The notes beneath the pieces are model-generated. The model was not told the origin of the DNA. It ran no database searches and saw only the letters and a program-made list of their open reading frames with translations. Below, in pieces: positions 14,443-26,204 of a DNA stretch of 30,193 bases. The stretch lies in IMG/VR virus record IMGVR_UViG_3300030104_001992, positions 1-30,193 of that record. One strand, written 5' to 3'. The position numbers and the translations under genes were made by a program. Position 1 is the stretch's first letter, and every line of letters starts with the position of its first letter. The stretch is from a virus.

Positions 14443-15965
14443 TAAGAATACTTGTAGTATATTGATGAGTGGTCTGCTTGTGATCCACCAAAAAGATATA
14501 GTTCTTTGATTGCCATATCTGCATTCACATTTTCTTTACAGAGATATTCTAAAAAGCGAAGTCCTGATAGTTTACTATACCTCCAAGACTGTCTTTTACC
14601 AGCAATCTCACCCATCATTTGATCTCCGTCACTTTTATCAAATCCATTTGCACCAAAAGTATCTAATAATTTATATATTTCTTTTGTGATATCTGATTTT
14701 TGTTTAGCAGTAGCTTTCTTTGGATCACAAGCAGACCATTCTGGTTCGTCAGGTACACCTGTGAATCCTGTATGCTTTAATATAAACCTAGCAACATTAC
14801 CTTGAATCTTACCCATAGCAGCATGCTCGCCTTTAAGTTCTAACTTCCAATCACCTTTATTATCACCACCAAAATTTCTTAACTGTATGTTATCCTTTTT
14901 TCCAGTTCCATACTGAATGTATACATCCATTGGCCATCTCTTATGAGCATGTTCACCAGTAAAATTTGTTTTACTATCATAAACTAACATATCTATTGAT
15001 TTCTTTTTCTTAAACTCAACCCCAAGACTTGCTTTTCTCTCTTGTGGGGTGTCAGCATTCACAACCTTTACTGTACCAGTACCACCAGTCTTTTTTAAAG
15101 ATACTCCCATCAATTTTTCATCAGTAAAAAATTGTGATAGTGCATCATTAAATACTTCTATTGTAGTTGTTGTTTTTTTCACACCATATGGTGTTAATTT
15201 GTTAATTATTTCAGTCTTGGCACCCTTACTAACTATCCAAATATCTGATGGGTTCCACTTGTCTTCATTTTTTAACTCCTTGTGTACTAACGAAGCTTTA
15301 CATTGAGCAAAAGCTTTTTTTATTACACCATCATCTATTTCTTTATCTCCACGAACAAACATAAAATCATTTGAAGCAGCAGGTTTTACTTTATTATACA
15401 ATGCATTTGCACCATCTACAAAAACTTCTTTCCAATCAGGATCTTGGTTAGCAAATTCAATCATCTGTTCCAAAGTAGCATCTGGAGTATCAATCCATTT
15501 CGCTGCTTTCTCCATATCATCTGTAGTAAGAGTCATGGTAGGAGTTAATTTATTATTCGGATGTACATGAAAACGAAGTGAATTATATAAGCAAGATGTA
15601 CTTTCCTGAATTGTAGTTTGTTTTGACCCACCACCAGATCCTGAAGATTTGATTGGTTTAAACTGAACACGAATAACATTTTTTTCAGTTACTACTATAT
15701 CTATTTCTGGTATATTAGAACCTTTGGATTTCCTATGCTCTACTGTATACCCCGTATCCTCCATTGCTTTCTTTACATTTTCAGTAGCAGTCTTTCTTTT
15801 ATTTTCAGGAACATATACCTTCATGAAAACCTGAACTTTTTTTGAAGCATCGCTTTCGGTTTTTTTAACATCAAATACCAAATAACTATACTCATCCGTG
15901 GATAGACCTTCTCTAAAAAGATCATTCCATGCTTTATCAACTGTTGTTGGAATTGTTATTGACAT
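14442..15965 (-). CDS. Large protein (507 aa), possible PD-(D/E)XK-like nuclease
   Basis: I do not firmly recognise this 507-residue protein. A first domain (1-105) is basic and mixed alpha/beta. A glycine loop, KSSGSGGGSKQTTIQES (106-122), links to a middle domain. There NPSDIWIVSKG (238-248) and GVSLKKTGG (287-295) have the spacing and look of a PD-(D/E)XK nuclease core (Asp241, Lys291). The C-terminal part contains ELKGEHAAMGKIQGNVAR and a Trp/Tyr-rich end. It heads the coupled cassette with the ligase-like and HxGH proteins. The ATG comes directly after the T-run of a strong hairpin, with GGGGG in the stem as the only ribosome-site-like sequence. Confidence 0.65.
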   Translation of the reverse strand: MSITIPTTVDKAWNDLFREGLSTDEYSYLVFDVKKTESDASKKVQVFMKVYVPENKRKTATENVKKAMEDTGYTVEHRKSKGSNIPEIDIVVTEKNVIRVQFKPIKSSGSGGGSKQTTIQESTSCLYNSLRFHVHPNNKLTPTMTLTTDDMEKAAKWIDTPDATLEQMIEFANQDPDWKEVFVDGANALYNKVKPAASNDFMFVRGDKEIDDGVIKKAFAQCKASLVHKELKNEDKWNPSDIWIVSKGAKTEIINKLTPYGVKKTTTTIEVFNDALSQFFTDEKLMGVSLKKTGGTGTVKVVNADTPQERKASLGVEFKKKKSIDMLVYDSKTNFTGEHAHKRWPMDVYIQYGTGKKDNIQLRNFGGDNKGDWKLELKGEHAAMGKIQGNVARFILKHTGFTGVPDEPEWSACDPKKATAKQKSDITKEIYKLLDTFGANGFDKSDGDQMMGEIAGKRQSWRYSKLSGLRFLEYLCKENVNADMAIKELYLFGGSQADHSSIYYKYS

Positions 15966-16729: not shown

Positions 16730-18097
16730 TTATATTACGAATGATGTGAATTTAGATTTACTATTAACCACTGGTTCTATTGGTTCAAACTCTTCTTTAA
16801 CTTCGTTAGTTACTTCGGAGTCCTCAACATTATACAGCTTCATCTTTGCTCTGTCAATACCTACTGTAAATCTTTTAAAGTATGTAGGATCATTATATCT
16901 ATTCTTCAATTGTTTAACCATAATTCTACCAGATTGTTCTAACTCTTCTGTGCTAATCAAAGCAAACATAAAGTCAGCAGTAGCAGGTAAACCAAACGAT
17001 TCAGATGTATCTTCTAAACTAGGATCAGTGCTACCAAACCCTGATCTAGTAGTCTGTGTAGCAGATACTATAGGAAGATCCTGCTCTACTGCTAGACCAC
17101 GTAACTCTTCTGCTATACCCTTAACATATGTGTATGAGTTAACGATAGCACCTCTATACCTAGCACTAGCACATATGTTTAGGTAATCTATGAAGATGAT
17201 ATCTGGTTTGAAATCCTTTTTAAGATTCAAATCAGACAAAAGACCCTTGAAATGACCAACATGAGCACTAGCAGTAGGGTATTCTTTAATAATAAGTTTA
17301 CCTTGTGTCTTCCTACCTATCTCTCCTACCCTAGAGGTAAAGAGTTGTTCTGGAATAGCACCAATATCCTTGATATTTACATTCAATAGGTTAGCATCTA
17401 TCCTTTCAGCAATCTTTTCCTCTGCCATCTCCATAGTAATGTAGAGTACATTCTTTCCTTGTGAGAGACAAGCACTTGCCATGTGACACATGAACAAAGA
17501 CTTACCAACACCAGTACCAGCAAGGGCAATATTGAGTGTTTTGTTAGGTAGTCCACCTTTAGTTACTAGATTAAATTTCTCTAGATCAAATGGAATCTTA
17601 AGTTCATCCTTATGGTAGTACTCATACCTATCTAATGCCTGATCTACGTAATCATGACCAATATATTCATCAAATGATACTGCTAATGCGTCTTGTAAGA
17701 TGCTAGGTATAGCACCCTTGTCTAACTTTTCATCTCCACCGTCAGCAATCTTGATAGACTGAAGTAATGCGTTATAAACAGCACGTTCTTGACACCATTT
17801 CTCGGTGGCATCAAGTAACCATTCAGTATCTACCCACTCATCATTTAAATTATCTACTAGAGTAGTAGCATTTTTAAATGTATCATCATTAAGGTCAGTT
17901 CTCTGCTGCAATCCTATGTTAAGAACCTCTTTAGTAGGGATTTTATCATATTTTGTAGAGAAATCTTGTATCTCTTCAAAGATAACTCTCTCCGACATGT
18001 CCTGAAAATAATCAGGTTTGACAAAAGGAACTACCTTACGATAAAAATCCTCACTACACAGAAGATTCCTCAAAATTGTTGATTCAACCTTCTCCAT
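16730..18097 (-). CDS. 41: Replicative DNA helicase, T4 gp41-like
   Basis: This 455-residue DnaB-family helicase (T4 gp41 is 475) has an N-terminal helical domain ([20 protein letters not shown]), Walker [12 protein letters not shown], Walker [12 protein letters not shown], and the sensor SATQTTRSG. The C-terminal [20 protein letters not shown] and KMKLYNVE strands are typical. The hexamer unwinds the lagging-strand template and couples to gp61 primase. Its start overlaps the uvsX stop by 14 bases and mazG follows after one base. Confidence 0.95.
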
Positions 18098-19127
18098 AAT
18101 GGAATACCTTATTAGCAGTTTCTTCTAGTGCTTGAATTACATCTGGAGTAAAGTAGGTGTCTGGATCTGAAAGGATCTGTTTTGCGTAGATCTTTTTGCC
18201 TCCAATCTCATATCTTCCTGCAACATTCTTCCAGAGTCCTCCCATCTCACCCAGTTCCAATAGACCATAGTAACGGTCAAGACCACGAGAATCAAAAAAT
18301 AAACGAGTTTCAATTTTAGATCCTTCACGAGTTAAACGGGACTTTTTCGCCTCACATTTAATAATGTTTCCGACCAGGTCGGTTCCTTCTTTTTCTTTTT
18401 TCTTTGAGAGATATACAATTGTACTAGCAGAATACTTAAGACCACTACCGCCCCCCATCTCTTTAGCAGGTACATACGAGCCAATAACATCATAAGTATG
18501 GTTTGTAACTAACATGGGTATATTTGCCTTACCTAATTTCAAAGTAAGAATCCTAAAGCATGACTTAACCAGTTGTGCTTTAGTCATATCACGAACGTTC
18601 TTTTCATTAGAGGCATCTTCTACCTCTTTATTAGTCGCTAACATGCCTAGGGAATCTAGCACAAACATGAGAGGTTTTCTCTCTTCTTTGGGCTGCTCTA
18701 GGTATTTATCGAGTACTCTGACCGCCTGTGTTCTGAACTCTTCTATAGTATTGATAGGAAAAATGACCAATCTTTTTGAGTCTATTCCTCTAGTTTCAAC
18801 CATCTCTTTAGAGATAGCAGATTCAGTTTCAAAATATAAAACTCCAGCATCAGGATTTGTTTCTAAAAAATTCTTGGCGATAGAAAGACAGAAGAATGTC
18901 TTACCAGTACCAGTTTCTCCAGCAAGTGCTGTAATCTTATTAGAAGGAATACCTCCTACAATAGATCCACTGACTAGAGCATTGAAAATATGACTTCCAG
19001 TATCAACAAATGACTCTACATCACCTGCAGCAATACCATCAGAAGCAACTGTAGCATACTCGTTCTTACTATCTTTAATTATTTGTTTTAAAAAATCCAT
19101 GTTAGGTGTTGATCTTGTAATATTCAT
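18084..19127 (-). CDS. uvsX: UvsX RecA-like recombinase
   Basis: A RecA/UvsX protein of 347 residues from the first ATG. Motifs are Walker [14 protein letters not shown], catalytic Glu in [12 protein letters not shown], Walker [11 protein letters not shown], and [12 protein letters not shown] with the [11 protein letters not shown] loop for DNA binding. It drives strand invasion for recombination-dependent replication. An internal ATG at 19100 ([10 protein letters not shown]) may be the true start, since the family usually begins MDFLK; neither has a clear ribosome site. The first ATG overlaps the gp43 stop by one base. Confidence 0.95.
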
Positions 19128-21634
19128 CAGAAAAATTGGAGTAGAGATACTCTACGTTCGGAATCCCAACCGATACATTCTAGCACATTTCTTAAAGGTT
19201 GGTAGAATGACTTATCGAACTGTAAATTATAGTCTATGTAATTGTCAACGTTGAACTCTCTGGGTATAGTACCCATGAAAGAAACTACATTTTCTCCGAT
19301 AGGATTTGGTTGTTTTAGATAAAGAAACTTTATCTTTTCTCCCTCTTGTATAGGAGCATACTTATGTGATACCTTATTCTGTTTAACATAGTAATTATAA
19401 AGTAGAGCACCACGTACATGTATGGGTGTTCCCTTTACATATATGTCAGCATTACTCTTATATTTCTCAAGACCATTTACACCACGAGGGAATGCGATGT
19501 CAATCGGATCCTGCTTTCTTGTGTCCTCTTTTACATGGTCAATATAATCGAGAACATCCTCATTAGTACCCTTGATAATAGTCTTGAATGCCTCCAGAAG
19601 TTTGTTTCTGAAGTATTGTGGGGTTGAAGACCTTTGAGTCTCTAGACCCATGATTTTCATCTTGGGTTTCTCATATCTTACACCCTCACTATCCCATACG
19701 TCAAGGATATATCTCTTTTTCGCAGTCCAAATACCCTTCGAAGCAATATTCTCACGTGCCATGACCATCTTCTGATCATAAGCATTCAAGTAGTCGGCCA
19801 GTTCTTGGTAAGAACTCTCAATATACTTCTCAAATTCCAGATTACAGATCTTATCAAGGAACGTAACAACGCTTTCATCAGTTTTCTCTCTACCCTTGTA
19901 TACACTCTCAACCATAGGACCCAAGTTAAGGTACATAGAGTCAGTATCTGAAGCAATAACATAATCTTCTCCTTCAGTTTTGAGTATCCTATTGAGATAC
20001 TCATTCATTTTGTTACCAATCCACCTGATAGATAACTGTCCTGATGTGGTAATTGCCTCTGCAATCTCCAAACGATAGTATCTAAAATGCTCGTTACCAA
20101 TTGCACCATAAGCACTGTTCAATTGGATCTTCCTTGCCATCTGTATGTTATTACATCTAGCAATTTCTTTCTTTAACTGTACACTAGGGTTCTTTTCATA
20201 CTGCTTTTTAGCAGCAATCATCTTCTTCTTATAAATGGTACGTTCCTTATAGATTTTCTCCATAAGTTTAGGAAGAAAACCCTGAAATGTAGTGTCATAT
20301 AGAGTACCATTAGCACATACAGTACAACCCTTTAGGTCATCTAACGGTTCCTGTTTGTAAAGTAACCTGTCAATTTGTGCACTGGGGCGTTTTCCTGGTA
20401 GTAAGGTCTCTGGCGAGAGGTTATACTGCATGATGAGATGAGGGTACAGACTGTTGAGGTCAAAACTAACAACCCAATCGTATATACCTGGAATCGGTTC
20501 TTTAACATAAGCACCTATGTATTGATCATCTTTATTGCTTTCTCTTTTAGGAGGAATAGCAATGTTTTGACGTGCAAGATAAACATATATGATGTTATCC
20601 CACATCCTTACTTGAGAATATACATCCTCAAAATTAACTCTTGCATCATATGCCATAGTTATGGCTAAGTCAAGTAGTTTCATCTTGTCATCAAGTTGAT
20701 CTACCAACCTAACGTCATGAATGTTATACTCTACAAACTTACTCCAATCATTATCATAGAATTCTTTGAAAGTATCATACTCCGAGTGATCTAATTTCTT
20801 CTCACCCAGTTCAACAAAAGCAATATGATCTAACCTATAAGACTCTTGATTAGTATAAGTAAACTTTTTATATAATTCTAGATAGTCTAGTACTGCAATA
20901 CCAGAAATGTCATAAGCAATCTGCCTACGACCTTTGATGTATATTTCCCTGCAATAAACATTCTTCCATGGTGAGATCAATCTTGACTCTTTCTCTCCAA
21001 CAACTCTATTGATCCTACGGATGATGTAGGGCATATCAAAGAGTTGCACATTCCATCCAGTAATAACATCTGGATAGTTTGAAGACCACCAATGAACAAA
21101 TGCATTAAGCATAGCAGTCTCGCTACTGAAATGCATATACTTTACATCACCATGAACACCATCTTTAGTGTTGTGATCATAAGGTTTTGTACCAAAAACA
21201 GATATATTATTAGTATTTGAATCCTTGATACTTATTAAAAGTATCTCCTGATCAGCACTCTCGATATCAGGGAACCCATTCTCTGCACGTGTTTCAATAT
21301 CAAGGGTAAACACACGAATATCACCCATATCATACGACATGGATTCATCAGGGTATTGCTCGTAAAGATATTGATTTACGTATCTAGTCTGACCACAGAT
21401 GTCAAAGTCAGGTATATCTTTATGGTCTTGTACAAACTTTTTCGCATCACGAATTGTGCCTTGCTTAACAGGTCTAACATACTTACCATCTAATGTTCTC
21501 CACTCCGACTTTTCAGGTGAAGGGAGAAACAAAGTTGGATTAAATTTTACACGATCCTGATATGGTCTACCTTCATTGTATCCTCGTACCAGAATTGTAT
21601 CACCTGCTTGCTCAACACTGGTATAAAATTTCAC
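19127..21634 (-). CDS. 43: Family B DNA polymerase, T4 gp43-like
   Basis: The 835-residue polymerase has an exonuclease domain (Exo [13 protein letters not shown], Exo [13 protein letters not shown], Exo [14 protein letters not shown]) and polymerase motifs A ([16 protein letters not shown]), B ([13 protein letters not shown]) and C ([10 protein letters not shown]). A KKRY motif ([10 protein letters not shown]) follows. Slightly shorter than T4 gp43 (898). The C-terminal end RRVSLLQFF is the clamp-binding tail, comparable with the T4 tail. The start is a GTG overlapping the upstream stop (GTGA). Replicates the phage genome together with gp45, gp44/62 and gp41/61. Confidence 0.97.
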
Positions 21635-21870
21635 TTCTTATCATTATATAATTTAAGGATCTCATCGGTAGGTTCTGCTACCACAAAGATATCAGTAGAC
21701 CTTACAGCAATTTCCTCCTTTTTTGAATGAGGAGGATAATGCTGTAAAGTCTTTGCTTTCATCTCCATAGGAGATATTAATTTACAGTCTGGATCACCAA
21801 GTTCAACTCCACCGATTTCTTCAATCTCTGCAATGATCCAGATGCCATCAAGTCGTAGTATCTTGATCAT
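21631..21870 (-). CDS. Sm-like small protein (79 aa), coupled to gp43
   Basis: 79 residues beginning MIKILRLDGIWIIAEIEEIG, a twisted beta-sheet pattern. Like the 145-residue gene just upstream and the 97-residue gene at 27937, it has a VxxxxGxxVI-like N-terminus, an ISP turn, a YPP segment, and an ending AVRSTDIFVVAEPTDEILKLYND. I read these as diverged copies of one small-barrel family. It overlaps gp43's GTG start. Possible RNA-binding or replisome adaptor role is inference. Confidence 0.7.
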   Translation of the reverse strand: MIKILRLDGIWIIAEIEEIGGVELGDPDCKLISPMEMKAKTLQHYPPHSKKEEIAVRSTDIFVVAEPTDEILKLYNDKK

Positions 21871-22285
21871 GATCTGGATCCATAGAACCGTCAGGAAGAC
21901 TTTCTGCAGCAGGAACCATTCCTGTATCTGCCTCTGTAACTTGTTTTACATCTGGTGTCTGTCCTTTAGCAGCATCTTCAGCAGCAACTGCTTGTTGTAC
22001 TGTATTAGTATATGCTTGTCCAAGACCTGGATCAGCAGTACCTACTGCCATTACAGATGCAAAAGGAATCTTGAATTGAGTATCAGATGAATAAGGTAAC
22101 CACTTACTAAATCTAACTTGTACTTCTTGGTTAGCGTCAGTATTAACACTCTCTGTGTTGAGAATGTATGGACGTACAAACATCAAGCAAATTGGTTTGC
22201 CATCTTCCTTATTATCTTCACGTACTTCCTGAAGTTCCGTGATCACTCGCTCTCCAGTCTGAAGAACTGCTATTGCTATTGCCAT
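21848..22285 (-). CDS. Sm-like protein with disordered tail (145 aa)
   Basis: The first 95 residues form a small beta-barrel pattern (IAIAVLQTGERVITELQEV, then VRPYIL, VRFSKWLPYSS and IPFASVMAVGTADPGLGQAY). The remainder is an acidic, disordered tail ending DPDHDQDTTT. Sequence layout (TGExVI, WxP, V-x-x-V/I-x-x-A, Y-x-N) is shared with the gene at 27937, and more weakly with that at 21631. It is the first gene after a sigma70-type promoter (22310-22338) and has a good RBS (AAGGTG). This makes it and gp43 the start of an early transcript. Function is not known. Confidence 0.75.
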   Translation of the reverse strand: MAIAIAVLQTGERVITELQEVREDNKEDGKPICLMFVRPYILNTESVNTDANQEVQVRFSKWLPYSSDTQFKIPFASVMAVGTADPGLGQAYTNTVQQAVAAEDAAKGQTPDVKQVTEADTGMVPAAESLPDGSMDPDHDQDTTT

Positions 22286-22309
22286 CTAGTATTCACCTTG
22301 TTTGAGTAT

Positions 22310-22338
22310 ATTGTAGCATGCTATATTTATTCTGTCAA
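22310..22338 (-). promoter_or_regulatory. Sigma70-type promoter for Sm-like/gp43 operon
   Basis: Minus strand: TTGACA (22338-22333), 17-base spacer, TACAAT (22315-22310). A start near 22303 gives an 18-base leader with AAGGTG before the ATG at 22285. The spacer and flanks are nearly the same as the promoter at 22966, so both are copies of one element. Confidence 0.8.
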
Positions 22339-22355
22339 TAAAACCTTTTCCTTTT
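22310..22355 (-). repeat. Promoter-bearing repeat, copy 1
   Basis: About 46 bases nearly identical (roughly seven differences) to 22966-23011, offset 656. The repeat holds a sigma70-type promoter plus the last codons of the upstream gene (C-termini KKRKRFY and EKEKVLLTE arise from the two copies). The shared core includes TAGCATGCT and TGTCAA on the plus strand. Confidence 0.75.
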
Positions 22356-22940
22356 TTTCAAAACATTATCAAATCCACGAGTTTCTTCGGGTAAATCTAA
22401 AGAAAAATTGAATGCAATTGACATTCTATCTTCTTCTGGAACCTCTTGAGATACCCAATGCATAATCCATGCTGGATGAACAACTAATAACTTTTCAGCA
22501 GGAACAATTTTTGTATACATTCTAGTATATGGAGTAGATTCTCCAATAGCATCATGCGGAATCAAATGGTCAATAGTGTTGTTGGGATTTAATAAAGTTA
22601 GATTACCAGAATTATTTTTTGGATCATTTAAATATAAAATTGCTACAAAAAATGATTGTGGATGAGTGTGTGGTTCAGAAATAGGACGTGGATTTCCTTT
22701 ATTAAACCAAACAGTTTCAAGTTTTTGTGAGTGTTTAAATCCACATTCATTATAAACTTTATTTACTTTTTCAGTAACTAGTTTCGAAAGATTTTTTATA
22801 GGTTCTTCACTAAAGTCAACATAATAAGACTGACCATCAGGTCTCAATTGTTTATGACCATAATCAATCAATTGATCAACATCAATATCTTCCAAAAATG
22901 TCCACCCAATAGGGACTGCGAACATACTCTCAACATTCAT
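22335..22940 (-). CDS. 2OG-Fe(II) oxygenase-like protein
   Basis: This 201-residue protein is a second member of the oxygenase-like family. ISEPHTHPQSFFVAILYLND holds H91 and H93, HPAWIMHWV contains H161, and R172 lies in DRMSIAFNF. It begins MNVESMFAVPIGW, typical of the TIGR02466-like group, which starts with a xxFPxP-type segment. It has its own sigma70-type promoter (22966-22994) and is followed by a second copy of that promoter. No strong ribosome site precedes the ATG. Substrate is unknown. Diverged from the other two copies in this window. Confidence 0.8.
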   Translation of the reverse strand: MNVESMFAVPIGWTFLEDIDVDQLIDYGHKQLRPDGQSYYVDFSEEPIKNLSKLVTEKVNKVYNECGFKHSQKLETVWFNKGNPRPISEPHTHPQSFFVAILYLNDPKNNSGNLTLLNPNNTIDHLIPHDAIGESTPYTRMYTKIVPAEKLLVVHPAWIMHWVSQEVPEEDRMSIAFNFSLDLPEETRGFDNVLKKRKRFY

Positions 22941-22965
22941 ATTGATTGATTATGGTTTTGAGTCT

Positions 22966-22994
22966 ATTTTAGCATGCTGTATTTACTCTGTCAA
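22966..22994 (-). promoter_or_regulatory. Sigma70-type promoter for the oxygenase gene
   Basis: Minus strand: TTGACA (22994-22989), 17-base spacer, TAAAAT (22971-22966). It lies at the end of hsp20 and reads into the oxygenase ATG at 22940, with a short AT-rich leader. It is a near copy of the promoter at 22310. Confidence 0.75.
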
Positions 22995-23011
22995 CAACAC
23001 CTTCTCCTTTT
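22966..23011 (-). repeat. Promoter-bearing repeat, copy 2
   Basis: Second copy of the 46-base element at 22310-22355, covering the last codons and stop of hsp20 plus the gap to the oxygenase gene. The copies share the -35 box, the 17-base spacing and the TAGCATGCT (plus-strand) segment. Confidence 0.75.
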
Positions 23012-23438
23012 CTGTTGGAAGACTTTGATTTATAGCATACTTAATCTTGCGTTGATGTTCTGGAACAATTTTCTCTAGTTTAATCTTTAATAAACCATCC
23101 ACATAAGAAACATCAGATACCTTAACGTCATCCCCTAACTGCCATGAGTTGGTAAATGCTCGTTTAGATAATCCATGATGAAGGTATTCATATTTTTTAC
23201 TGTTACCTCTACTAGTCATTGAATATACTTTAAGTACATTCGTCTCTGTCTCTACATATATCTCTTCTTTCTTAAAACCTGCTAAAGCAATTTCTATTTC
23301 GTAAGTTGTGCTATCAACCTTGACAAGATTGTATGGTGGATAGTTAGTGTTGGTTGAACTCATCGATTCTAAACGGTGAAAAATATCATCCAGACCAACA
23401 TTGAATGGGGAATAAGTATCCCAAGCTAAAGTATTCAT
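22983..23438 (-). CDS. Small heat shock protein Hsp20
   Basis: This 151-residue protein has an alpha-crystallin domain (about 36-130): NLVKVDSTTYEIEIALAGFK (strand 2-3), EEIYVETETNVLKVYS, YLHHGLSKRAFTNSWQLGDD, and VSDVSYVDGLLKIKLEKIVP, which ends with the G-x-L type motif. Hsp20 proteins hold unfolding proteins; most T4-like cyanophages carry one, perhaps for photosystem or virion protein folding. It has a good RBS (AAGGAG, about nine bases from the ATG) and a separate 68-base leader with a late-promoter-like box and a hairpin. It is thus probably expressed on its own. Confidence 0.93.
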   Translation of the reverse strand: MNTLAWDTYSPFNVGLDDIFHRLESMSSTNTNYPPYNLVKVDSTTYEIEIALAGFKKEEIYVETETNVLKVYSMTSRGNSKKYEYLHHGLSKRAFTNSWQLGDDVKVSDVSYVDGLLKIKLEKIVPEHQRKIKYAINQSLPTEKEKVLLTE

Positions 23439-23506: not shown

Positions 23507-23884
23507 CTACCACTTTTCAGCAACTATTTCTATGGTGTTCTCTACACTTTTTTGTTCGGAGACTACGGTGTAACCTTGCTTCTGTACGGTTTCCATAACC
23601 GTCTCTCTAGCATACTCTTGAGTAACTTTCTCAAGAAATCTTTCAATTGTAATTGGTTCTTTCCATGCATCTAATTCAGCAACCAAATGAAGTGCTCCAT
23701 CAGCACCTATCTTAAACCCTACGTAACGAGTTATTCCTACCTCTACTTGAACCTGCTCATGTTTATGATTAACTGGGTTGTCCAGTAATACATTCTCTTG
23801 AGTATCATAATTCAATGTATTAAGTGCCTTAACAAGAATGCCTGTATCTGTAAGTTTAGTCTTTAGTGTTGTGAAGTGTGACAT
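23507..23884 (-). CDS. Ycf35-like protein (DUF1257)
   Basis: Starts MSHFTTLKTKLTDTGILVKA, the signature N-terminus of DUF1257/Ycf35, a family found in cyanobacteria, plastids and cyanophages. Residues 45-80 (VQVEVGITRYVGFKIGADGA and LHLVAELDAW) match the family core, and EYARETVMETVQKQGYTVV its end. 125 residues, full length. Its function is not established. It overlaps the DUF2997 gene by 29 bases, the same pairing as in cyanobacterial genomes. This points to transfer from a phototrophic host. Confidence 0.88.
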   Translation of the reverse strand: MSHFTTLKTKLTDTGILVKALNTLNYDTQENVLLDNPVNHKHEQVQVEVGITRYVGFKIGADGALHLVAELDAWKEPITIERFLEKVTQEYARETVMETVQKQGYTVVSEQKSVENTIEIVAEKW

Positions 23885-24059
23885 CTGTTACGGTTTCTTG
23901 TTTCTGATAGTACTCTGGTTTATGTATACGAGAGACTATATTACCTAGGTTCTTTTCAACTTCAGAAGTTAATCCCTCGCACTCGTTTCCAACAGCACCC
24001 ACAACCTCCTCGGTTACAGTGCCATCTTGTCTGATCGTAAATTTAATTCTCTTTGCCAT
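23856..24059 (-). CDS. DUF2997 protein
   Basis: 67 residues from ATG 24059 (MAKRIKFTIRQDGTVTEEVV), which shares one base with the regA stop. A TTG three bases earlier is less likely. KFTIRQDGTVTEEV and CEGLTSEVEKNLGNIVSRIHKPEYYQK match DUF2997, the small partner of DUF1257/Ycf35 in cyanobacteria. Function unknown. The pair sits directly after RegA, so it is probably made with the replication proteins. Confidence 0.85.
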   Translation of the reverse strand: MAKRIKFTIRQDGTVTEEVVGAVGNECEGLTSEVEKNLGNIVSRIHKPEYYQKQETVTDVTLHNTKD

Positions 24060-24481
24060 CAAACGGTAGTTTTCTTTCTCCCAATATTATACTTGGACTC
24101 AAGTGTCCACTCATCCTTATCCTTAAAACTTAATACTTTTATTTGATTCAAAGGAGCAATATCTTCTACAGATGTCTTTTCAATAATAGTTACTAGTCCC
24201 CAATCTGATAGCAATTGTGCTATTCTATTACGACGTTGAACATCATTGTTAGTAAGATTAGTTTTCTTACCGTCAAGAGCAAACAACTCTTTGAAATGAA
24301 CAATATAATATCTTCCTTGCTTGTGTAAAATGTGACAGGATTGATATAACTTCCTCTCTTTTCTAGAAGCTACACCAATTCTTGTTAATGTTTCACGAAC
24401 TTTTAAAAAATCGTCTGGTTCTGAAAGACTGACCTCCACCATATCAGATGGCTGCCATTCTATCTCAATTTCAGTAGTCAT
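24059..24481 (-). CDS. regA: RegA translational repressor
   Basis: The 140-residue protein aligns with T4 RegA (122 aa): EPDDFLKVRETLTRIGVASR, LYQSCHILHKQGRYYIVHFK and AQLLSDWGLVTIIEK are clear counterparts, and the end YNIGRK matches YTIGN. RegA binds ribosome sites of early mRNAs such as gp44, gp45 and gp62 and blocks translation. It lies next to gp62, as in T4 (45-44-62-regA), with AAAGGTGGG three to eleven bases ahead of the ATG as RBS. The N-terminus is extended by about 10 residues (MTTEIEIEWQPSD). Confidence 0.95.
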   Translation of the reverse strand: MTTEIEIEWQPSDMVEVSLSEPDDFLKVRETLTRIGVASRKERKLYQSCHILHKQGRYYIVHFKELFALDGKKTNLTNNDVQRRNRIAQLLSDWGLVTIIEKTSVEDIAPLNQIKVLSFKDKDEWTLESKYNIGRKKTTV

Positions 24482-24483
24482 CT

Positions 24484-24882
24484 TTACCCACCTTTATACA
24501 ATAGTAATTTTATTTCATCAAGTTGGGATTTTGTGAGTATCCTTAAGGCAGCAATAGCTTTATTATGACTATATCCATAATATTCTTTCACCAAATCAAG
24601 GTTCTCAAGAGTGTCCCTCTTGATCCACGGAGAATGTCTCTTCCTCGGCTTCAAACTATTTATGTAAAAGTCGTACTGCATCTTTCTATCTAAAGAATAA
24701 TGCTTGTTCATTTCATTAGCATATAAAACACTGTCAAGATGCTGACTCAATGCTTTATTTACAATAAAAGGTTTATACTGTTTTGGTTCAACAGTACCAT
24801 CAGACATAAGATTCTTTTTGGATTGATTGATACTGTAAAGAACATCTATTAAGTTCTTTCTATCACGTTCTTTTTTATTCAT
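24484..24882 (-). CDS. 62: Clamp loader small subunit, T4 gp62-like
   Basis: This 132-residue protein is the gp62-type partner of gp44 by context and pattern: RKNLIDVLYSINQSKKNLM, FIVNKALSQHLDSVLYANEM and RKRHSPWIKRD (small basic motif). T4 gp62 is 187 residues, so this is shorter, as in other cyanophages. It has no ATPase motif; it joins four gp44 to open and load gp45. It lies immediately before regA and overlaps the upstream Cys-rich gene (ATGA). Confidence 0.85.
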   Translation of the reverse strand: MNKKERDRKNLIDVLYSINQSKKNLMSDGTVEPKQYKPFIVNKALSQHLDSVLYANEMNKHYSLDRKMQYDFYINSLKPRKRHSPWIKRDTLENLDLVKEYYGYSHNKAIAALRILTKSQLDEIKLLLYKGG

Positions 24883-25250
24883 AAGTCAAATAATGCTTCC
24901 TGTATCTCTTCTTTACTAAGCCATTTGTTATGTCTATGACACAAATTACAAACATACTTTGCGTTGTGAAATAATTTTGGTGTTAATACTACTCTCATAG
25001 TAGAGCATTCACAATCCGTACATTTACATTTATGTTCTACATTCCAATTTATAGTATTCTTGACATCTTCTATTATATCATAATAAATCTCTTCTTGCCA
25101 TTTCTCATATTCTAGATTTCTTTTATCCTCCTGCATCTCCGTTTCGTATTGAAGATACAAATTCTTAAGTCGATCAGAATCCAAACGTTTGGGATCCCAA
25201 TCAACTCTTTGCAATGCATTTGATAAACGATCTAGTGCTACTTTCTTCAT
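24879..25250 (-). CDS. Cys-rich zinc-binding hypothetical protein (123 aa)
   Basis: The N-terminus is helical and charged (LKNLYLQYETEMQEDKRNLE). Residues 74-107 contain a cluster C-K-C-T-D-C-E-C followed, after a spacer, by YVCNLCHRHNKWLSKEE (CxxC). Together four or more Cys could bind zinc; the ending resembles phage zinc-ribbon tails of unknown role. It is coupled to gp62 by ATGA and to the 268-residue gene upstream by four bases. A DNA- or RNA-binding role next to the clamp loader is plausible but unproven. Confidence 0.75.
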   Translation of the reverse strand: MKKVALDRLSNALQRVDWDPKRLDSDRLKNLYLQYETEMQEDKRNLEYEKWQEEIYYDIIEDVKNTINWNVEHKCKCTDCECSTMRVVLTPKLFHNAKYVCNLCHRHNKWLSKEEIQEALFDL

Positions 25251-26053
25251 ATCCCAACATCAAGATGAGTAGGATATTCTTTTGTATCTTGTTTAAAGTT
25301 TTTAGAGGATACTCTAACACCACCTCCACGATTTCTAGATGCCCAATTAACTTTAGATCCTTTATTGGGTTTTAATATTGTTACTCCTGGTTCATGTAGT
25401 TCTTCATGTGATACAGAATAATCTTTTTTTGATATCCAATCTGGAATGTCAGCAGAAATATGCTCTACTTCCCAATACCCTCTATCAAAAACAGGTTGCC
25501 AAAGAGATTGTTCTTGAAGCACATGATCATCAGGATAACCAAGTTCTTCAATTCCCTGATCCTGTGCATGATGTTCTAACAAATAAAGGGGTCTCATACC
25601 TTTTCTTTTCAATGCTTTTTTATTTTCTTTCCTATCTTGAGACCATTCTTCATGTATTTTATGTTGAAATTGAATGTATTGATCCATATCAATAACTCCT
25701 TCATTCAATAATTCTTTATACTTATCATGTTGTATCTCTCTCATTACTGCTTCTTCTTTTTCTTCACGATACATTCTTTCAACTATTCTTTTATCCCATC
25801 CCTGATCTCTACAACTTTTATTAAAAATAGATTCAATTCTTTTTCCAAGTTTTGTACGATGATCAGATAGTTTTTTGAATGTTGATTTAAGTGCAGTATC
25901 ATTTTCCATAATCTCCTCATCTTCATGATTATGATCTAATAAATCATGAAATCCCCAACATGCATAAGTACCTTCTCTTGCACCATCAATCATCTTAACC
26001 ACATTAGGATGAAATGCAATACGATAAGTTCTTTTATAAATTTTATTTGTCAT
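25247..26053 (-). CDS. Hypothetical charged protein (268 aa)
   Basis: I start at ATG 26053 (MTNKIYKRTYRIAFHPNVVK), eight bases after the stop of the small gene upstream; the longer frame from 26113 would overlap that gene and adds only 20 hydrophobic residues. The body is Lys/Glu-rich with long helices (FKKLSDHRTKLGKRIESIFN, MYREEKEEAVMREIQHDKYK), and the C-terminus is basic (ASRNRGGGVRVSSKNFK). No known motif is visible. The gene is very AT-rich. Possibly a DNA-associated or scaffold protein; unknown. Confidence 0.75.
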   Translation of the reverse strand: MTNKIYKRTYRIAFHPNVVKMIDGAREGTYACWGFHDLLDHNHEDEEIMENDTALKSTFKKLSDHRTKLGKRIESIFNKSCRDQGWDKRIVERMYREEKEEAVMREIQHDKYKELLNEGVIDMDQYIQFQHKIHEEWSQDRKENKKALKRKGMRPLYLLEHHAQDQGIEELGYPDDHVLQEQSLWQPVFDRGYWEVEHISADIPDWISKKDYSVSHEELHEPGVTILKPNKGSKVNWASRNRGGGVRVSSKNFKQDTKEYPTHLDVGI

Positions 26054-26060
26054 AATTTTA

Positions 26061-26204
26061 TTATGTAAATACAGCAGTAACACCCATAACTTTGGCGTTT
26101 GGATTACGAGCAAGTGCTACTTGTCTTGCTTCTTCGTAGTTACGTGCCTGTACAGTCTCTGTAAATACAGTTCCTGCTACGTAGAGTTTTACTTCACACT
26201 TCAT
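26061..26204 (-). CDS. Small conserved-looking protein (47 aa)
   Basis: ATG at 26204 opens 47 residues, MKCEVKLYVAGTVFTETVQA followed by RNYEEARQVALARNPNAKV and a VMGVTAVFT ending. It is a beta-strand/helix/beta-strand unit. The start lies 11 bases inside the Dam methylase end; the gene finishes eight bases before the next ATG. The pattern (strand-loop-helix with EEARQxAxARNP) is typical of a conserved cyanophage micro-protein. Function unknown. Codon usage matches the neighbours. Confidence 0.78.
   Translation of the reverse strand: MKCEVKLYVAGTVFTETVQARNYEEARQVALARNPNAKVMGVTAVFT

Follow-up and report, generated by a model that had tools for sequence, protein, structure and literature searches.

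A promoter-like repeat at both ends of a cyanophage oxygenase gene as the probable scar of the gene's insertion

Introduction

How does an accessory gene come to stand between two near-identical promoter-like sequences, and did these sequences move the gene or did they arise when it arrived? The question is raised by a 30,193-base virus record (the window, meaning the whole stretch analysed here), a fragment of a marine T4-like cyanophage genome (Kyanoviridae). Phages are known to gain and lose accessory genes, whose junctions are seldom fresh enough for reading. Morons, accessory genes of phages that have a promoter of their own, lie inserted between genes that are adjacent in relatives, and T4-like phages reportedly also carry PeSL (promoter-early stem-loop) cassettes, said to have been described by Arbiol in 2010 and Comeau in 2014. 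The gene in question encodes a 2OG-Fe(II) oxygenase of a group (PHROG_81 / PF13759) that is widespread among cyanophage accessory genes (PMC3037559). A sequence-only reading of the window had proposed that this gene forms a cassette that could be gained or lost by recombination between its flanking repeats.

Results

Gene order around the oxygenase

On the - strand, the window reads gp62 (24484-24882), regA (24059-24481), two small genes, hsp20 (22983..23438), the oxygenase gene (22335..22940), g176 (21848..22285), g177 (21631-21870), the DNA polymerase gene gp43 (19127-21634) and a uvsX homologue. Of the named viruses, AG-345-P14, a single-cell virus of the Kyanoviridae, comes closest (96% identity across the oxygenase region), and the closest relatives are all metagenome or single-cell contigs, with no isolate among them. 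Hsp20 is a small heat shock protein of 151 aa (PHROG_432, 3e-50; PF00011, 4.1e-14), and a gene for a DUF1257 protein (PF06868, 9.3e-18) lies directly upstream of it at 23507-23884. g176 (T4-GC 176; PHROG_431, DUF6561), which follows hsp20 immediately in relatives, opens the g176-g177-gp43 operon. The oxygenase, of 201 aa, matches PHROG_81 (5e-27) and PF13759 (2.6e-14; 53.8 bits against a curated cut-off of 27), and its His91-x-His93 and His161 are invariant in six relatives. The insert consists of this one intact ORF with conserved motifs, and the only repeat flanking it is direct.

The direct repeat and its promoter-like boxes

The sequence-only reading had described two near-identical 46-nt elements with TTGACA-17-TAnAAT boxes. 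Both elements and their boxes were confirmed on the - strand, with 40 of 46 positions matching over that span, but the alignable repeat is longer, at 55 nt (22301-22355 and 22957-23011; 48/55 identical, 7 mismatches), and its longest exact runs are shorter than 11 nt. In an all-against-all scan of the window, every other pair of 46-mers fell short of 36 matches, and the best pair in 12 simulated Markov-1 windows reached at most 32/46, as against 40/46 for the real repeat; a degenerate form of the element occurs twice in the window, compared with 0.00 expected per shuffled window. Copy 1 (22957..23011) contains the 3′ codons of hsp20, TTGACA (22989-22994), a 17-nt spacer and TAAAAT (22966-22971), together with the late-like sequence AGTAAATA (22980-22987). 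Copy 2 (22301..22355) contains a relic of the hsp20 tail, TTGACA (22333-22338), a 17-nt spacer and TACAAT (22310-22315), together with the late-like AATAAATA (22324-22331). In each copy the sigma-70-like boxes match the consensus at 11/12 positions with a 17-nt spacing and a TG preceding the -10 box, and each carries a late-promoter-like (A/G)TAAATA. The layout that had been proposed, an oxygenase gene bounded on both sides by promoter-like elements, was thereby upheld.

This AT-rich window holds no excess of sigma-70-like matches as such (58 found, 60.6 expected); the weight of the case rests on the duplication and on conservation in relatives, and we infer from the sequence that both copies act as promoters. 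A perfect 12/12 sigma-70 match (TTGACA-17-TATAAT) is located within a long gene at 16829-16857 on the - strand. A strict hairpin search, of a kind that bulged stems escape, found no hairpin with a T-run in either copy. An independent contig, L090, has the same two-copy layout and is 99.8% identical to the window over 8.6 kb (16 mismatches, one gap), so the arrangement is no accident of a single assembly.

Empty sites and other locations of the gene

It had been predicted that some relatives would have a single copy and lack the oxygenase at the hsp20 junction. Seven such relatives were found (L001, L008-L011, L119, L121), in which hsp20 is joined straight to g176 with a single element between them. 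The hsp20-to-g176 gap is 42 bases in L001, L008, L009, L010 and L011, while L119 and L121 are more distant, with hsp20 genes 75 and 67% identical to that of the window. Both of these outgroups and nearly all other Kyanoviridae lack this gene at hsp20/g176.

Six relatives carry the oxygenase at other sites, including the junctions that flank the regA/gp62 pair, and their proteins are 76-81% identical to that of the window. In L001, L011 and L114 the gene separates regA from g68; in L008 and L009 it precedes gp62, and in L088 it stands one gene further upstream, ahead of a g24879-like gene. A search by oxygenase alignment added just one of these contigs, L114. Each record holds one copy. The gp62-regA backbone is 98% identical between the window and L011, yet the oxygenase site differs, and at least three changes of position are required on trees. 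At these other sites the gene fits tightly into the operon, and the element flanks it in none of the six relatives. The stretch 5′ of gp62 (24882-26194) is another variable spot, its gene content differing in L008, L009, L088 and L114.

Other genes at the junction, also predicted, were encountered as well: oxygenases of another 2OG family, PF13640 (L012:3565-4107, L014:3005-3595, L015:1902-2444, L029:5516-6058), a small ORF in L050-L086, and, in other phages, a second g176-like gene between hsp20 and g176. No clear flanking duplication was seen around any of these inserts. The hsp20/g176 junction is a repeated target for insertion.

The two joins

The hsp20 stop codon (TAA, 22985-22983) lies inside the GAG-TAA-ATA of copy 1, and the copy-1 TTGACA therefore encodes the final Leu-Thr of Hsp20. 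The oxygenase stop codon (TGA) sits within the copy-2 TTGACA, in a frame other than that of hsp20. Copy 2 still holds the hsp20 tail in the hsp20 frame (KKEKVLLTE*), now 3′ of the oxygenase gene, and the oxygenase, which ends LKKR* in L088, ends LKKRKRFY* in the window by reading the duplicated tail in the other frame. By these ends, the natural stop codon of the oxygenase was lost in the 3′ join, at which microhomology is visible (TTGAAAAArAGG against the hsp20 tail, AGAAAAGGAAAAGG).

At the 5′ side, a 16-nt leader, ACCATAATCAATCAAT (22941..22956), fills the gap between copy 1 and the ATG exactly. It repeats the oxygenase codons of 22857-22872, ATTGATTGATTATGGT, exactly but inverted (as their reverse complement), and is the same in L090. 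The oxygenase genes of relatives also contain these codons, intact or almost so, and the gene was therefore the source of the leader and not the reverse. A filler templated in this way is indicative of template switching while DNA was being synthesised. The leader RNA is predicted to fold into a hairpin that encloses the oxygenase start codon (z -3.6). A second exact inverted repeat, of 18 nt (TGGTCTGCTTGTGATCCA), occurs in the window at ~14468-14738; its two arms are on the same strand, with about 250 nt between them.

The element across cyanophages

A search of 2.9 million viral contigs for a loose form of the element located it solely at the hsp20/g176 junction. Two copies occur only where the oxygenase is inserted, and there is otherwise one per genome (for example, 2 in the 30-kb window and 1 in a 79-kb relative). 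Looser searches revealed no donor or dispersed copies of the element, and no donor carrying the exact window junction was found. Because the element is restricted to this junction and oxygenases elsewhere lack it, it is taken to be the gp43 operon's own promoter, ancestral and fixed in place. Conservation leads to the same view: the best sigma-70 match before g176 averages 10.3/12 (7.2 when shuffled) and reaches at least 10/12 in 31 of 39 distinct junctions, consistent with an old promoter of this operon. The -10 box, the 17-nt spacing and the TG extension, all outside coding sequence, are kept in all eight elements of the clade, and most other lineages have a promoter at the same place built from different bases. 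In 27 of the 39 junctions, the hsp20 stop codon is part of TAAATA.

Folding revealed a terminator hairpin with a T-run at hsp20/g176 in 28 of 36 other cyanophage junctions, and in 19 of the 36 the -35 box lies within the 3′ arm of the hairpin. Terminator and promoter are fused in L004, L003, L020, L061, L068 and others, where the -35 box (TTGAC/TTGCC) is in the 3′ arm and the T-run forms the spacer. The clade of the window has lost this hairpin, and the last codons of hsp20 serve as its putative -35 box.

In S-PM2 and RB49, middle genes are thought to be driven by overlapping early and late promoters, the cyanophage late motif being NATAAATA (PMC2984593). The motif overlaps TTGACA-17-TANAAT before the gp43 operon in the same manner here, although the promoter of the window is duplicated. 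Copy 2, with AATAAATA, agrees with the motif, while copy 1 has AGTAAATA rather than NATAAATA. On this ground the oxygenase may be expressed mainly early, a contrast of early-only with early-plus-late expression. Our search for cyanophage 5′-end mapping yielded no usable published study.

Discussion

The relatives have one promoter, no oxygenase gene at this junction and the gene elsewhere, and so the promoter pair is best read as an insertion scar. We consider it probable that the oxygenase was inserted by illegitimate recombination that duplicated the hsp20 tail together with the promoter. In T4-like cyanophages, the hsp20/g176 junction would be the border of a transcription unit, at which a conserved host-type (sigma-70) promoter, overlapped by a late-type TAAATA in the clade of the window, serves g176-g177-gp43. 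An ancestor of the window lineage probably gained here, by illegitimate, synthesis-associated recombination, a gene that sister phages would already have carried elsewhere in this gene cluster. The 3′ end of the gene would have been joined to the hsp20 tail through microhomology, and its 5′ end, via the 16-nt template-switch filler from its own codons, to sequence just past the promoter. With joins that overlap by 55 nt, both the hsp20 tail and the promoter would have been duplicated; Hsp20 is left intact, copy 2 would be the native promoter that gp43 has kept, and copy 1 the one acquired by the oxygenase. That copy 2 holds the hsp20 relic and that the oxygenase reads into it indicate that the repeats arose with the insertion. 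The likely order of these events is reconstructed from the repeat, the single-copy empty sites, the other gene locations, the relic tail and the filler.

The copies differ at 7/55 positions, so either the event is not recent or two parents were joined; L009 alone shares two of the differences in copy 2, which is not enough for assigning the copies to different parents by SNPs. Compared with relatives, the tract from ~21,930 to 23,340 (mid-hsp20 to mid-g176) is 82-94% identical while its flanks are 97-100% identical, which suggests that the finished arrangement probably spread later, into this lineage, as a block of ~1.4 kb by ordinary homologous exchange, although fast local evolution instead of import could also account for the divergence.

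One rival account, in line with gain as the sequence-only reading proposed it, has the repeats themselves bring in the gene: the element would be a PeSL-like recombination site, and the oxygenase would have been gained by homologous recombination between the element copies of two phages. The gene does lie between two promoter-like elements, most other cyanophages have a terminator-promoter composite at hsp20/g176, and such shuffling is known in T4-like phages (PMC4503421, citing Arbiol 2010 and Comeau 2014). Gain by this route is nevertheless largely refuted by an element that keeps to one junction and is single in the genome of every contig that lacks the insertion, and by oxygenases that sit elsewhere with no element beside them; the window copies lack the hairpin, and the hsp20 relic in copy 2 speaks for target duplication. 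We regard this origin as very unlikely. Loss by recombination between the repeats, the other half of the sequence-only proposal, could occur, yet the hybrid element that it would leave was seen in no genome. If the oxygenase were original to this junction, the single-element relatives would be the products of such excision, and their sites do resemble the expected deletion product; the outgroups and nearly all other Kyanoviridae lack the gene here, however, the single elements lack the marker bases of copy 1 (GAG, TAAAAT, AGACTC), and the relatives that have them carry the oxygenase at other sites, all of which makes an ancestral two-promoter cassette very improbable.

Templated inverted fillers also occur in amplification chimeras, and a filler of that kind could have been produced, along with the repeat, during amplification or assembly. 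The identical arrangement in the independent contig L090, which differs from the window by 16 mismatches and a single gap in 8.6 kb, and an insert that is an intact ORF with conserved motifs leave this explanation with hardly any credibility. Rather more room, though the idea is still unlikely, is left for a repeat that is a neutral scar, in which the copy-1 TTGACA is simply Leu-Thr coding sequence and expression of the oxygenase depends on upstream transcripts or on the late-type motif. The C-terminus of Hsp20 (LLTE) is conserved at the protein level, which places the copy-1 TTGACA under constraint as codons, and TAAATA is common at the stop; against this, the non-coding -10 box, spacing and TG extension are retained throughout the clade, and most other lineages place a promoter here with different bases.

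Set beside known systems, the locus is a variant of accessory-gene traffic in T4-like phages that is near to morons and PeSL cassettes in effect and, by the features tested, neither. It resembles PeSL cassettes in its T4-like genome, its variable spot, its accessory gene flanked on either side by a strong sigma-70-type, putatively early promoter (11/12, 17-nt spacing in both copies), and its repeats, which might recombine. The stem-loop terminator joined to the promoter is absent from the window copies and present at this junction in most other cyanophages, the element is not dispersed in many gene-exchanging copies over the genome, and the repeats, unlike those of PeSL, would be the result of gene gain and not its agent. 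As with morons, the gene is inserted between neighbours that adjoin in the seven empty-site relatives and has a promoter-like element of its own (copy 1); unlike a moron, it has no terminator of its own, and its promoter would be a copy of that of the neighbouring operon, made at insertion. A transposable element with target-site duplication was rejected, the insert being a single ORF without transposase or terminal inverted repeats. Compared with other cyanophage oxygenases of PHROG_81 / PF13759, the subfamily in the window shifts place within one replication-gene cluster among near-identical phages.

A tentative extension, to which we attach little weight, is that operon-border promoters are preferred landing sites at which cyanophage accessory genes are captured with promoter duplication. 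If so, a phage could add an instantly expressible gene with its flanking core genes unharmed, and T4-like phages would have a route of gene relocation in which a mobile element is unnecessary. The empty site, the filled site and four gene locations are legible in backbones up to 98% identical, and the relic tail, the filler and the duplicated promoter can still be read at the window junction. The addition of a gene at an operon border can thus spare the flanking genes while acquiring a promoter, and promoter repeats beside a gene do not prove that the repeats moved that gene.
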